Positions 7,760-19,124 of a DNA stretch of 48,686 bases are shown here, in pieces (position 1 is the first letter of the stretch; every line of letters starts with the position of its first letter). This DNA is from Longimicrobiales bacterium (GTDB taxonomy: Bacteria > Gemmatimonadota > Gemmatimonadetes > Longimicrobiales > RSA9), in contig DATHUY010000137.1 of NCBI GenBank assembly GCA_035461765.1, positions 1 to 48,686 on the forward strand, given 5' to 3'. The notes below the pieces were generated by a model. The model searched no databases, was not told the origin of the DNA, and saw only the letters and a list, made by a program, of their open reading frames with translations. The position numbers and the translations under genes were made by a program.

Positions 7760-7856
7760 TGGCGGGAACGTGTAGGAATCGAACCTACCAGAGCGGGTTT
7801 TAGCCACTCGAGCCAGTTTTGAAGACTGGTGGGACCACCAGGCCCCCTCCGCTCCC
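7760..7856 (-). tRNA. selC: tRNA-Sec (anticodon TCA)
   Basis: This tRNA delivers selenocysteine to UGA codons that carry a SECIS element; it is charged with serine and converted by SelA. At 97 bases it is longer than any canonical tRNA. The diagnostic features are all visible. The D stem has 6 pairs (GGGGCC/GGTCCC) closed by a four-base loop. The anticodon stem CCAGT/ACTGG encloses loop CTTCAAA with anticodon TCA. The extra arm is long, with a 6-pair stem (GAGTGG). The T arm is GTAGG-TTCGATT-CCTAC. The acceptor starts GGGAGCGG and ends ACGTTCCC; seven pairs form and the eighth is a G-A mismatch, unlike the 8-pair acceptor of E. coli selC. Discriminator G and an encoded CCA follow. There is no sel gene in the window. 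Confidence 0.95.
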
Positions 7857-14726: not shown

Positions 14727-15740
14727 ATGGCAACCGCAACCGAACGCAGCCGGTTCGACTGGAGGCAGGGTCGCGTGGCCGCCCTCATCATCGTGAGCCT
14801 GCTCCTGCTCGCGTACGGCGTCTACCGCGTCGGCAAGGTCTTCGATATTTTCGCGAGCCGCTACGAGCTCTCGACCCTCGTGCCGTCCGCGCTCGGCCTG
14901 CGCCCCGGCGCTCCCGTGACGCTCGCCGGCCAGCGCATCGGCCAGGTCAAGGCCATCGAGTTCATACCCGTCAACCGCAAGGTCGGCGACGACAACCTGC
15001 GCATTGTCATCGCCGTGGCCGACGGCGTGCAGGACCAGATCCGGGCGGACTCGCGCGCTTTCCTGCGCACGCAGGGATTGCTTGGCGACAAGTTCGTCGA
15101 CATCGAACCTGGCTCTTCCGGCGCACGCATTCTCCAGCCGGGCGACACGCTCCCGGCCGGAGAGTCGATCGACATTGACCAGTTCATCACGCTCGCCGCC
15201 GGCGCGCTCGATCAGGCGACTGGGATCGTGATGAATCTGCAGGAGCTGACCGGCGGCCTGTCGCGTGGCGAGGGCACCATGGGACAGCTGCTGCGCGATG
15301 ACCAGCTGTACGCCAATCTCAACTCCGCGACGGTGGAAATGCGCAACATGCTGGCGCAGATCAATCGTGCGGACGGCACGTTCGGCCGGCTGGTGCGTGA
15401 TCCGGCGTTGTATCAGCAGATCCACAGCGCGATCACCCGCGTGGACTCGCTCGGCGCCATGATCCTGCACGGCGATGGCAGCATGGCCCAGCTCCTGCGC
15501 AGCGACACGCTCTACAGAAGCATGCTCGGGACACTGACGACCGCGGACAGCGCCGTTACGGACCTGTCTTCGTTCATCAACCGCTTCACGACCGGCGACG
15601 GTACGATACAGCGCATGATGTCGGACCCGGAGCTCTACGACCAGTTCCTCCGCGCCGTCACCGATGTGCAGGCACTCATCAACGAGATCCGCCTGAATCC
15701 GGCGAAGTTCAAGCCGAACATCACGGTGGACGTCTTCTGA
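14727..15740 (+). CDS. mlaD: MCE-domain lipid-binding protein MlaD
   Basis: Periplasmic ring-forming subunit anchored in the inner membrane; the MCE ring forms the lipid channel of the Mla system. The 337-residue product has a cytoplasmic start, one membrane helix (about residues 18-38: VAALIIVSLLLLAYGVY) and an MCE domain (about 43-125, with GLRPGAPVTLAGQRIGQV and LLGDKFVDIEPG). A long C-terminal part follows, built from variations of a G-x-G-T/S-x-x-Q/R-L/M-x-x-D-x-x-L-Y unit (four to five copies between about 180 and 310), probably helical. Neither mlaC nor mlaB follows, so the system resembles the three-gene MCE operons. The gene ends 15 bases before the convergent blaR1-like gene. Confidence 0.92.
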   Translation: MATATERSRFDWRQGRVAALIIVSLLLLAYGVYRVGKVFDIFASRYELSTLVPSALGLRPGAPVTLAGQRIGQVKAIEFIPVNRKVGDDNLRIVIAVADGVQDQIRADSRAFLRTQGLLGDKFVDIEPGSSGARILQPGDTLPAGESIDIDQFITLAAGALDQATGIVMNLQELTGGLSRGEGTMGQLLRDDQLYANLNSATVEMRNMLAQINRADGTFGRLVRDPALYQQIHSAITRVDSLGAMILHGDGSMAQLLRSDTLYRSMLGTLTTADSAVTDLSSFINRFTTGDGTIQRMMSDPELYDQFLRAVTDVQALINEIRLNPAKFKPNITVDVF

Positions 15741-15755
15741 TCCTGCATGGGCGGT

Positions 15756-17291
15756 CTACCGGCCGCCTGCCTTCGTTGTGATCCTGATCACGCCGTTCGT
15801 GGCACGCGCGTCTTCATACATGTGGCGCGCGGCCTCTCCCTTGAGCACCTCAATCCGCTCGATGCTTTCCGGCGCGAGGCTGTTCAGCGAAAACGATAAG
15901 TCAGCAATGACACCGTCGATGACGATCAGCGGCCGGTCCGCACCCTCGTCCGGCTCGAACCTGATGATGCTGCCGCGTACCACCACCGGCTCGCGCTTAC
16001 CGATGATGTTCATCTCGGTGACCTCCCCGGCTGCTGTCCTGTCCGCGTGACGTAGCGCCGTTGCGTCAGACGCCGCGTGCGTCCTGATCTCCACCACGCC
16101 ATGCCGGGCTCGCTCGCCCCAGGCAGTCACCGCAGCCGGCGCCTTGATCACTTCGATGGAGTGAATCTCGCCGGGTGCGATCTTCCGGGCGGCTTCGGAC
16201 GTGGCGATGATGCCATCGACAATGAACAGCGGCCTTTCTTCCGTCGTGAGCGGCACGAGCAGACCCGCCCGCTCCGCCTGCACCTGCGCCGTCGTCGCGT
16301 CCATCTCATCAATGGCAGCGGCCGTCGGCAGGTCGGCCGCGCACGCTGTGCCCAGCAGCGCCAGCGCTGCCAGTGCTGCGACCGCCCCGTGGCGGTGGTG
16401 TGGTGCCCGGTTCTTCCCGGTCATGGCTATCAGCCTCCGTTCGAGGTGGGTGCGCGTGTCGGCCAGTGCCGGCGCGCCGAAGGGACGGGCGCTCATGCGC
16501 CCTGCAATTTCCAGCAGCACTTCTCCGTAGGGGCGCGCGCTCACTCCCCGACCCAGTACGCGCGCATCGCAGTCGAGCTCCACGGCCAGGCGCATGCGCC
16601 GCAGCATCCACCACAGGGCAATGTTCCACGGCATCATGCAGACGAGCGTGCACCCGAGCGCCAGCGTGAGGTGATCGCCCGCGCGACGATGTTCATCCTC
16701 GTGCTGTACAACCAGCCGCTGCCGCTCCGGCGACTGACCGAGCAGCCAGCGGGGAATGACGATGGCCGGATGTATCAATCCGATAAGGGCGGGGCCGGCA
16801 TCGACCGAAACCAGTACCTGAACGTCCCCGACGCGGTGACTCCGCCAATGCCTGCGCGCACGCCTCAGCCGGAGGAGGGTGAGGCTGAACGCTGCGAAGA
16901 GTGCCAGTGTCGAAGACGCCCACAGGAAGGGCAGGCTCCTGCCGCCGGCCCCGGCCACCGCGTCGTACATACGTTGTGCAGCCCCTGCCCCTCCCCGCCT
17001 CACGGCTTCCAGCGCCGTAAGCAGCGGCGCGGTCACGCTCGACGTCATCTCTCCGGTCCTGCTCGCCTCCACGTCCAGCGCCGTCACCAGCTGCTGCACC
17101 GGCTCCGGTCCGTCCGGCATACGCACACGCATCAGACCCACCACCGACAGCAGCACCGCCGCCGTCATGCCTGCGATCCACACCCACCGGACGGGCCGTC
17201 TAAGCATCCGGCAGGCGTGTTGGCCCGCCAACGCCGCCATCCCGATCAGCCCGCTCACCACCGCGGAGTACAGCATCCAGGCAGCGGTCAT
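15756..17291 (-). CDS. BlaR1/MecR1-type M56 metallopeptidase fused to two TonB-plug-like repeats
   Basis: M56 peptidases of the BlaR1 type are membrane zinc proteases that, on sensing a signal, lead to cleavage of a BlaI repressor. The 511-residue product has membrane helices near residues 7-24, 37-54, 121-140 and 210-230. The zinc motif HEDEH is at 197-201, with the likely third ligand Glu238 in VELDCDAR, and a last hydrophobic segment at about 302-318. The part after it, which in BlaR1 is a penicillin-binding sensor, holds instead two similar units (about 353-404 and 453-507). Each reads roughly PL-hhVDG, then I-sIEVhK, then a G-V-hxI end: the core of TonB plug domains. Start and blaI stop overlap as ATGA. 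The protease assignment is strong; the sensed ligand is unknown. Confidence 0.85.
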   Translation of the reverse strand: MTAAWMLYSAVVSGLIGMAALAGQHACRMLRRPVRWVWIAGMTAAVLLSVVGLMRVRMPDGPEPVQQLVTALDVEASRTGEMTSSVTAPLLTALEAVRRGGAGAAQRMYDAVAGAGGRSLPFLWASSTLALFAAFSLTLLRLRRARRHWRSHRVGDVQVLVSVDAGPALIGLIHPAIVIPRWLLGQSPERQRLVVQHEDEHRRAGDHLTLALGCTLVCMMPWNIALWWMLRRMRLAVELDCDARVLGRGVSARPYGEVLLEIAGRMSARPFGAPALADTRTHLERRLIAMTGKNRAPHHRHGAVAALAALALLGTACAADLPTAAAIDEMDATTAQVQAERAGLLVPLTTEERPLFIVDGIIATSEAARKIAPGEIHSIEVIKAPAAVTAWGERARHGVVEIRTHAASDATALRHADRTAAGEVTEMNIIGKREPVVVRGSIIRFEPDEGADRPLIVIDGVIADLSFSLNSLAPESIERIEVLKGEAARHMYEDARATNGVIRITTKAGGR

Positions 17292-17689
17292 TCGTCCTCC
17301 TTCAGCCGGTCCTGGAGCAGCCGCTTCATCCGCTCCAGCTCCGCGCGCGACAGCCCGCGGTCCGATACCAGCTGCGCGACCAGCATCTCGGCCGAGCCGT
17401 GAAACATCATCTCCCTGATCCGCGCGAGCGCGCTCCCTCCCGCCTCCTCCGGGGCGATCAGCGGGTGATACCGGTACGCCCGGCCCTCCGCCTCGTGTCG
17501 CACGAAGCCCTTCCCCTCGAGCGTCTGCAGCACCGACAGAACGGTCGTGTACGCCAGCGTCTCGCCCAGCGCGTCGCGGACTTCGGTGACCGTACCCGAT
17601 CCCGCCCGCCACAGGATACTCATCACGTCCAGCTCACGGTCGGTAAACAGAAATTCGCTCACGGCTTCGCAGGTGCGGGTGGATGACAC
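17288..17689 (-). CDS. blaI: BlaI/MecI/CopY-family winged-helix repressor
   Basis: Dimeric DNA-binding repressor that is inactivated by proteolysis triggered by the M56 partner. The 133-residue product has the usual N-terminal winged helix: LFTDRELDVMSILWRAGSGT, then VTEVRDAL, then the recognition part AYTTVLSVLQTLEGKGFV. A wing (EGRAYRYHPL) and a C-terminal dimerisation helix region (to residue 133) follow. It is the first gene of the pair and overlaps the M56 gene by 4 bases. A promoter and dyad lie 24-53 bases upstream. Auto-repression plus control of the divergent serine hydrolase would match bla/mec loci. Confidence 0.93.
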   Translation of the reverse strand: MSSTRTCEAVSEFLFTDRELDVMSILWRAGSGTVTEVRDALGETLAYTTVLSVLQTLEGKGFVRHEAEGRAYRYHPLIAPEEAGGSALARIREMMFHGSAEMLVAQLVSDRGLSRAELERMKRLLQDRLKEDE

Positions 17690-17712
17690 GAATGGGGATC
17701 TTGTCTACGGCC

Positions 17713-17741
17713 AATATAGTACTAGGGTTCCAGTACATCAA
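17713..17741 (-). promoter_or_regulatory. blaI promoter with dyad operator in its spacer
   Basis: Minus strand TTGATG (17741-17736), 17 bases, TATATT (17718-17713), a near-consensus sigma-70 promoter about 24 bases before the blaI ATG. An inverted repeat GTACT-N8-AGTAC occupies 17719-17736, almost exactly the spacer. A repressor bound there would block this promoter; the same site lies 126 bases before the divergent hydrolase gene. Promoter and dyad are seen directly; binding by BlaI is inferred. Confidence 0.6.
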
Positions 17742-17861
17742 GGCCGCTGTGGCTGCCCGGGGCATCCAGCCGGATAAGACGGGCTGCCGTTACGTCATTC
17801 CTGCTCTATTATCGCTGAGGGCGCGCACGAATACGGCGTGGGATTACGAGGGCGTGAAGCG

Positions 17862-19124
17862 ATGATATCGAGGCACCGGGCAGGGTTGATCGTTCCGCTG
17901 ATGGTCGCGCAGGTCTCGTGCGTTACCACGCCCGAAGGCGAGGTGGCCGATAGCAACGGCCTGTCGCCCGCGGGTGCCGCGTCGATCACATCGCTCCTTG
18001 ATGGATACGTGGAGGACGGAAAACTGGCCGGTGTCGTAGCGGTCGTGGCGCAGCACGGCCAGGTGGTGTACGCGCAATCGGCTGGCTGGATGGACCTGGA
18101 GCAGCAGATACCCATGCAGGAGGACGCGATCTTCAGGATCTACTCGATGACCAAGCCTGTGGTCGCGGCCGGGGTTCTGAAACTGGTCGAGCAGCGGATG
18201 ATCGCCCTCGAGGATCCGGTCGCGAAGTACATCCCGGCGTTTTCAGGCGTCAGGGTACATGTCGGAGGGAGCGCGGACGCGCCCGTTCTACAGGATCCCG
18301 ACAGCGTCATGAGGATACGACACCTGCTGACGCACACCGCGGGTCTTGGCTACGGACTGCACGAGACGCCCGTCGACACTCTTTACCGGCGCGCTGCACT
18401 GTTCGACCCCGTCCGAACGGTGGAGGAGTTCGCCGACAGCATCGCGCGGCTGCCGCTGTACTTCACACCCGGCACGCGGTTCAACTACAGTGCCGCGATC
18501 GATGTGGCGGGACGGGTGATCGAGGTAGCATCCGGGCTGCCGCTCGACCGCTTCCTGTATGAGGAGATCTTCCTGCCGCTCCGCATGGGGGACACATCCT
18601 TCCGGATCCGCGCCGACATGCGCGGACGCGTCGCGGTGCTCTACGCACTGGGCGAGGATGGCCGGCTGGGAGAGGTGACGGACGGACTGCTGGCGATGTA
18701 TGAGCCCGACGCACGCTTCTTCTGGGGCGGTGGTGGACTGTTGTCGACGACGCGCGACTATCTGCGGTTCGCCCAGATGCTCCTGAACGGTGGACATCTG
18801 GATGGAGTGCGCATCCTTGCCGATTCGAGTGTCGCCCTGATGATGCGCAATCATCTGCCGCCGACGCTCACGCCGCTGACGGGACCACCGCTCATGGATG
18901 GAGGTTATGGGTATGGTCTCGGCGGAGCCGTCCTCGTGGACACGGCGCGTGCCCAGCTGCCTGGCCCGTCCGGGATCTATCGCTGGTCGGGCTATGTCGG
19001 GACCTATTTCTGGATCGATCCCGTGAACGAGGTGATCGCAATGGTATGGACCCAGCTCACGCCGGGCAGGATGTGGCCGCTCGAGGAGGAGTTCCAGCGC
19101 GTCGTGTACGGTGCGTTGCGGTGA
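17862..19124 (+). CDS. Serine beta-lactamase-fold hydrolase (class C / EstB-like)
   Basis: Secreted or lipid-anchored penicillin-binding-protein-like hydrolase; members are beta-lactamases, DD-peptidases or esterases. The 420-residue product starts with a hydrophobic signal ending near VAQVSC, a poor lipobox. The nucleophile motif SxxK is SMTK (about residue 96) in FRIYSMTKPV. The second motif is the tyrosine in TRFNYSAA. The third-motif region reads YRWSGYVGTYFWIDP, with W-S-G where H/K-x-G is usual, which is typical of esterase-like relatives. The ATG at 17862 has GAGGG upstream. It is divergent from blaI-blaR1, the classical arrangement for a regulated beta-lactamase. Family is sure; true beta-lactamase activity is uncertain. 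Confidence 0.85.
   Translation: MISRHRAGLIVPLMVAQVSCVTTPEGEVADSNGLSPAGAASITSLLDGYVEDGKLAGVVAVVAQHGQVVYAQSAGWMDLEQQIPMQEDAIFRIYSMTKPVVAAGVLKLVEQRMIALEDPVAKYIPAFSGVRVHVGGSADAPVLQDPDSVMRIRHLLTHTAGLGYGLHETPVDTLYRRAALFDPVRTVEEFADSIARLPLYFTPGTRFNYSAAIDVAGRVIEVASGLPLDRFLYEEIFLPLRMGDTSFRIRADMRGRVAVLYALGEDGRLGEVTDGLLAMYEPDARFFWGGGGLLSTTRDYLRFAQMLLNGGHLDGVRILADSSVALMMRNHLPPTLTPLTGPPLMDGGYGYGLGGAVLVDTARAQLPGPSGIYRWSGYVGTYFWIDPVNEVIAMVWTQLTPGRMWPLEEEFQRVVYGALR

Follow-up and report, generated by a model that had tools for sequence, protein, structure and literature searches.

The DNA analysed here, called the window below, is a stretch of 48,686 nucleotides from a Longimicrobiales bacterium (contig C137; the draft genome measures 4.68 Mb). 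Its minus strand carries a two-gene unit made of a BlaI/MecI-type repressor gene (17288..17689) and a gene for an M56, BlaR1-type membrane protease (15756..17291), whose 511 aa product ends in two half-plug units like those of TonB-dependent receptors. We propose, with a probability of about 0.7, that this M56 gene encodes two products, the plug-tailed sensor-protease and, through an internal start, a free plug lipoprotein. The proposed nested gene (15756..16424, minus strand), which rests on codon bias and on stand-alone homologues, would specify a 222-aa prolipoprotein composed of a signal peptide, a lipobox Cys and both half-plug units.

By its relatives, the window falls among Longimicrobiales-type Gemmatimonadota. 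The set examined comprised 101 distinct M56 proteins, 69 of which were plug-tailed by profile search, and 31 with other tails entered the comparison of the Cys. A 55-sequence alignment of relatives was the basis for residue invariance and for the full-length AlphaFold model, the codon test used 52 non-redundant plug-M56 genes (466 columns tested), and gene neighbourhoods were compared in 19 relatives, same genus included, a wider set being examined as well.

The repressor, the protease and its plug tail

The repressor was recognised by the Pfam family Penicillinase_R (E=2.5e-27, 95.9 bits, cut-off 22.6) and its gene adjoins M56 in all 19 neighbourhoods, in agreement with the original prediction of a blaI. 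It starts at GTG 17689 or, more likely, at GTG 17662, the latter being favoured by the alignment with paralogues. The protease matched Peptidase_M56 (Pfam, E=2.8e-19), and the whole protein matched Staphylococcus aureus BlaR1 (8exp) in Foldseek with E=4e-4; with the NCBIfam model blaR1_generic it reached 30.7 bits, below the cut-off of 400. The HEDEH motif already noticed in the sequence occupies residues 197-201 (16689..16703, minus strand), and H197, E198, H201 and E238 are invariant in the alignment, E238 lying in the downstream Glu ligand region. The full-length model had a predicted local distance difference test score (pLDDT) of 82. With all zinc-site motifs present, the proposal that the BlaI/M56 proteolytic relay is kept stands, and BlaI is probably cleaved by its partner protease. 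The open reading frame had been listed as 15756 to 17612, which places its start too far upstream: the real, canonical ATG lies at 17291 and is preceded by AAGGAGGACGA.

The outer part of the sensor had been read as two TonB-plug-like repeats. Profile search and structure prediction both bore this out, with the correction that the repeats are half plugs. The Pfam Plug family (PF07715) matched the tail in two stretches with 43 bits (cut-off 23.9, E=6.6e-11), each unit covering profile positions of about 46-97 out of 107. Unit 1 corresponds to residues 355-404 (16080..16229, minus strand; AlphaFold and Foldseek) and unit 2 to residues 455-506 (15774..15929, minus strand; Pfam Plug, AlphaFold and Foldseek). 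The predicted fold consists of two beta-beta-alpha-beta-alpha-beta units, and Foldseek matched the tail of the full-length model to SusC plugs. A tail fold unrelated to plugs would have refuted the original reading, and the prediction gave the opposite. When the mature tail was modelled alone (pLDDT 80, predicted template modelling score 0.70), the model matched the plugs of SusC, RagA, Cir, PirA and FepA in Foldseek; identities between tail units and plugs were 44-46% over about 55 residues, reaching 46% over 54. No Pfam transpeptidase or beta-lactamase match, no SxxK and no KTG was found in the tail. The lack of any penicillin-binding motif, combined with a real plug fold, makes it likely that the M56-plug protein senses something other than beta-lactams, as had been suggested.

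A proposed internal start ahead of a lipoprotein-type signal

Ahead of the fourth membrane helix lies a conserved motif, LERRLxxM, which reads CTC GAA CGG AGG CTG ATA GCC ATG in the window. At the nucleotide level it is CGGAG[GA]-N9-ATG, with GGAGG placed 9 nt ahead of an in-frame ATG. The CGGAGG formed by the Arg285-Arg286 codons (16434..16439, minus strand) thus has the position of an internal Shine-Dalgarno, and the ATG is that of Met290 (16422..16424, minus strand), 27 residues before the lipobox Cys. The Arg286 codon was AGG or AGA in 52 of the 52 plug-M56 genes tested. When all M56 genes carrying the motif were considered, the second Arg was AGG/AGA in 82 out of 89 (13.4% for the other Arg codons there). 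At other conserved Arg of the same genes the same two codons were found in 5/49 (R35), 6/40 (R147), 2/51 (R232), 1/49 (R234) and 5/52 (R244) cases, and AGG plus AGA account for 6.4% of the Arg codons in the window's genome. Codon conservation gave a z-value of 59.7 for Arg286, 19 to 23 for E284, L287 and R285, and 12.4 for the best unrelated column, values that overstate significance, the genes being related. The contrast with the other Arg codons is made within the same genes, and is therefore free of this kinship problem.

A Shine-Dalgarno core was present 4-11 nt before the internal ATG in 65 of 69 plug genes, versus 58 of 721 (8%) for other internal ATGs; for canonical M56 starts the count was 42 of 52. 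The spacing between Shine-Dalgarno and ATG is 9 or 6 nt among relatives, genes in which Met290 is replaced by Ile have an ATG one codon upstream instead, and the distance from Met to Cys is 27 residues in 60 of 68. A conserved in-frame start and a Shine-Dalgarno constrained at synonymous sites are the marks of internal-start genes, and both were found here. We infer that the start at Met290 is used.

These data can be compared with what a single product would give, i.e. a BlaR1-like receptor using the plug tail as its sensor, as originally proposed, with the Cys and the codon bias otherwise caused, for instance by ribosome pausing while the fourth helix is inserted. The domain order and fold are indeed BlaR1-like, and pausing at a Shine-Dalgarno-like codon pair could by itself produce the codon bias. 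However, pausing does not call for an ATG at a constant distance or for its one-codon shift upon loss of Met290, and genes starting at the Met290 equivalent, described below, would be left unexplained. We consider a single product unlikely.

The fourth helix itself (16341..16403, minus strand) has the features of a lipoprotein-type signal ending with Ala316-Cys317. A Cys in such a context at the end of this helix was found in 69 of the 69 plug-tailed M56 proteins, always with Ala at position -1 of the lipobox, versus 19 of the 31 with other tails, and in the alignment no residue outside the protease domain is invariant except Ala316 and Cys317. For the internal product, MTGKNRAPHHRHGAVAALAALALLGTA-C fits the PROSITE-type lipoprotein pattern (basic N-terminus, hydrophobic core, lipobox Cys). 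The genome encodes Lgt and three LspA as lipoprotein-processing enzymes, and Cys317 is presumably lipidated. In E. coli, an acidic residue after the lipobox Cys favours retention in the inner membrane. This residue is Asp or Glu in 64 of 69 plug-tailed M56 proteins, versus 4 of 29 ordinary lipoproteins of the window's genome; in the window's own M56-plug protein it is Ala, not acidic. A codon-conserved Shine-Dalgarno and ATG placed just ahead of a lipoprotein-type signal suggest that the tail is made as a separate lipoprotein too.

In 69 out of 69 proteins, the position and topology of the lipobox would also allow signal peptidase II to free the tail from the full-length protein, a polyprotein scheme for which no internal initiation is needed. 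A paralogue of the same genome (see below) does have the Cys without an internal start. Such release leaves the conservation of synonymous codons upstream of the helix unexplained, and as a replacement for internal initiation it appears improbable, even more so than a single product, although the two processes could coexist.

Several observations weigh against an internally started lipoprotein. The relatedness of the genes means that z-scores exaggerate independence; a spacing of 9 nt between GGAGG and ATG is rather long; four plug genes lack a full Shine-Dalgarno core (CAGAGA), and one (L013) has no regular motif. Position -3 of the lipobox is more often Val, Ala or Gly than Leu. Finally, the fourth helix would have to anchor the full-length protein and could act as a signal peptide there as well, so that the receptor itself could be cleaved.

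In several relatives the tail alone is encoded by a separate open reading frame that lies inside the M56 cluster or downstream of it (L088, L092, L093, L094, L095, L096, L108 and L076), and truncated-M56 forms of the tail gene also exist (L049, L068, L087). Stand-alone tails have a basic start, the same helix, AC[DE]xxxPT and a half plug; they begin at the equivalent of Met290, mostly with 27 residues before the Cys, and Pfam Plug matched those scanned. Pairwise comparison of seven of them gave ratios of nonsynonymous to synonymous substitution rates of about 0.2-0.5, which indicates purifying selection. When the tail is encoded alone, the fourth helix thus acts as an N-terminal signal. We also observed that metagenome-assembled genomes titled Gammaproteobacteria (L088, L095, L096, L108) have the same M56 type as the BD2-11 Gemmatimonadota bin L076 and are syntenic with it; their titles may be wrong.

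Proposed mechanism and comparison with known systems

In the two-product scheme, the full-length protein would be a membrane protease of the BlaR1 type, with two half-plug units behind the fourth helix as its periplasmic tail. From its own Shine-Dalgarno, a second product would be begun at Met290 as a prolipoprotein; the fourth helix would then become an N-terminal signal peptide, Cys317 would be lipidated, and the plug units would be left as a free membrane-anchored protein. The tail would perceive a signal from the envelope, probably not a beta-lactam, upon which the protease would cleave BlaI. As its most likely role, the free lipoprotein may pair with the identical tail of the receptor and set or relay the signal by plug-plug contact at the membrane. 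Otherwise it might serve as a threshold-setting decoy, report on lipoprotein traffic or make contact with SusC-type receptors. In its general form, the proposal is that BlaI/BlaR1-type M56 genes across Gemmatimonadota hold a second gene, nested in frame and provided with a ribosome-binding site, and that the receptor's last helix also acts as the signal peptide of a free plug lipoprotein, one reading frame yielding both the receptor and its lipid-anchored partner; we hold this to be likely.

The unit resembles the BlaR1/BlaI relay (for a general account, see PMC7593790) and MecR1/MecI, as known from staphylococci and Bacillus licheniformis, by its BlaI-type repressor beside a four-helix M56 protease, its extracytoplasmic C-terminal module and the probable operator in its promoter. 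In contrast to these, it has a plug tail in place of a penicillin-binding sensor, an invariant lipobox Cys at the fourth helix, a proposed internal start in the protease gene and no conserved beta-lactamase partner. By its defining domain, it is not a beta-lactam sensor. PetR/PetP of Synechocystis, a copper switch, is likewise a BlaI/BlaR1-family pair with a task unrelated to beta-lactams (PMC7896320); there the signal is copper and the targets are photosynthetic, and the accessible part of that report mentions neither a plug tail nor a nested lipoprotein. Compared to the plug of TonB-dependent receptors such as SusC and RagA, each unit is alike in fold and sequence, but here a half plug occurs in tandem, without a barrel, on a protease and, as proposed, as a lipoprotein.

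Internal in-frame initiation is known, with 75 such starts in Caulobacter (PMC4117421), and it produces Cas11 inside cas8 and cas10 genes (PMC11899642). As in the case of Cas11, one gene would yield two products through an internal Met with an upstream Shine-Dalgarno; Cas11 is however a CRISPR subunit and not a membrane sensor, whereas the internal product here would gain a signal peptide and a lipid anchor. NlpE/Cpx, which monitors lipoprotein trafficking (PMC6538781), offers a possible functional likeness, by analogy, as a lipoprotein informing an inner-membrane sensor, but the sensor there is a histidine kinase and the genes are separate. A literature search, mostly outside subscription papers, returned nothing on M56-plug proteins or on internal starts in them. 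BlaI/BlaR1 pairs not devoted to beta-lactams and internal in-frame starts are known already, but none of the papers searched combines them with a helix that is also a signal peptide.

Should translation indeed begin at the internal start, annotations of an entire class of bacterial sensor-proteases lack half of the products, and a transmembrane helix doubles as a lipoprotein signal peptide under a selection visible at synonymous sites. The receptor and a lipid-anchored copy of its sensor would then coexist, and the two ribosome-binding sites would fix their ratio. This would provide a testable model for BlaI/M56 systems without beta-lactam sensors, and would explain the stand-alone plug lipoproteins of relatives. 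AGG or AGA before a Met before the fourth helix would be a cheap signature for finding more nested genes.

The promoter, the neighbouring hydrolase and other M56 tails

Upstream of blaI we found a promoter-like site for the blaI-M56 unit, TTGATG-17-TATATT (17713..17741, minus strand; 1 found versus 0.1 expected). Its spacer contains an 18-bp palindrome, GTACTAGGGTTCCAGTAC (17719..17736), a probable BlaI operator. The location of the palindrome within this site supports autoregulation, and lends no support to a control of the hydrolase described below; the blaI-M56 operon is thus probably autoregulated. No second exact match was found in the genome, and hits with 1-2 mismatches were fewer than for a reversed control pattern, which means that no regulon can be read from the genome. 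A single operator common to all relatives was considered and rejected: a TACT/AGTA-type palindrome lies upstream of 7 of 32 BlaI genes (0.6% background), and was not found upstream of BlaI genes in Longimicrobiales clade f2.

A divergent SxxK serine hydrolase gene (17862..19124, plus strand) is present as originally placed. Its product belongs to the Beta-lactamase family (Pfam, E=1.2e-67), with SMTK and YSA motifs and WSG where KTG is expected, and is AcmB/EstB-like; the best NCBIfam model was AcmB, below its cut-off. By motifs and score it does not qualify as a class C beta-lactamase, every class C cut-off being missed (27.8 bits versus 415). Since an SxxK enzyme gene diverges here from a BlaI and an M56 gene and an operator-like palindrome separates them, the locus could be taken for a beta-lactam-inducible divergon governing the hydrolase, and the arrangement had been described as exactly the bla/mec layout. 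The likeness is superficial. The sensor has no penicillin-binding domain, the hydrolase has neither the KTG motif nor a class C score, and the palindrome is part of the blaI promoter and lies some 125 bp away from where the hydrolase gene starts. Moreover, no hydrolase homologue was found beside blaI-M56 in any of the 19 neighbourhoods, same genus included; in the wider set homologues lie only kilobases off, in few clades. Neighbourhoods and motifs thus speak against the hydrolase as a regulated target, and we rejected a bla-type control of this gene, a neighbour and not a conserved partner, as hardly credible.

No conserved partner gene other than BlaI was detected in the relatives' neighbourhoods. 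Flanking genes on both sides differ by clade, and neighbours common within one family reflect general synteny, not a specific partnership. A MlaD-type gene adjoins blaI-M56 in the same-family genomes L035 and L043, as it does in the window (14727-15740). A search for M56-plug genes on plasmids, made to reach Bacteroidota, returned nothing beyond TonB receptors and M56 proteins of the ordinary kinds.

Other arrangements were seen among M56 genes. In L047, L048, L049 and L087, a single blaI is followed by two to five plug-tailed M56 genes or fragments in tandem, an arrangement in which several receptors might share one repressor. The window's genome has a paralogous blaI-M56 pair (L054:7750-9477, contig C164) whose tail consists of two TonB C-terminal domains, without plugs; in this paralogue (L003/L054) the Cys at the fourth helix is present, and the internal Shine-Dalgarno and ATG are both absent. 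In L069, L079 and L127 a plug unit and a TonB C-terminal domain, both partners of TonB coupling, are joined on one M56 chain. The same M56 type also precedes PDZ-like, ankyrin-like and coiled-coil tails and an unnamed family (L033, L106, L119, L070/L084/L091); an internal start and the Cys occur in the L033, L119 and L070/L084/L091 groups, and neither in L106. In Rhodanobacteraceae M56 genes the internal-start signal was mixed, with AGG in 13 of 30 and an unexceptional z of 9. The fourth helix of this type (L131, L149-L177) ends in a conserved FAA-QVTPP, similar to a signal peptidase I site, and a subgroup has GAGG-N9-ATG ahead of the helix end.

Elsewhere in the window, ARAGORN detected a tRNA-Sec gene (7760-7856, minus strand), which suggests selenoprotein synthesis in this bacterium.

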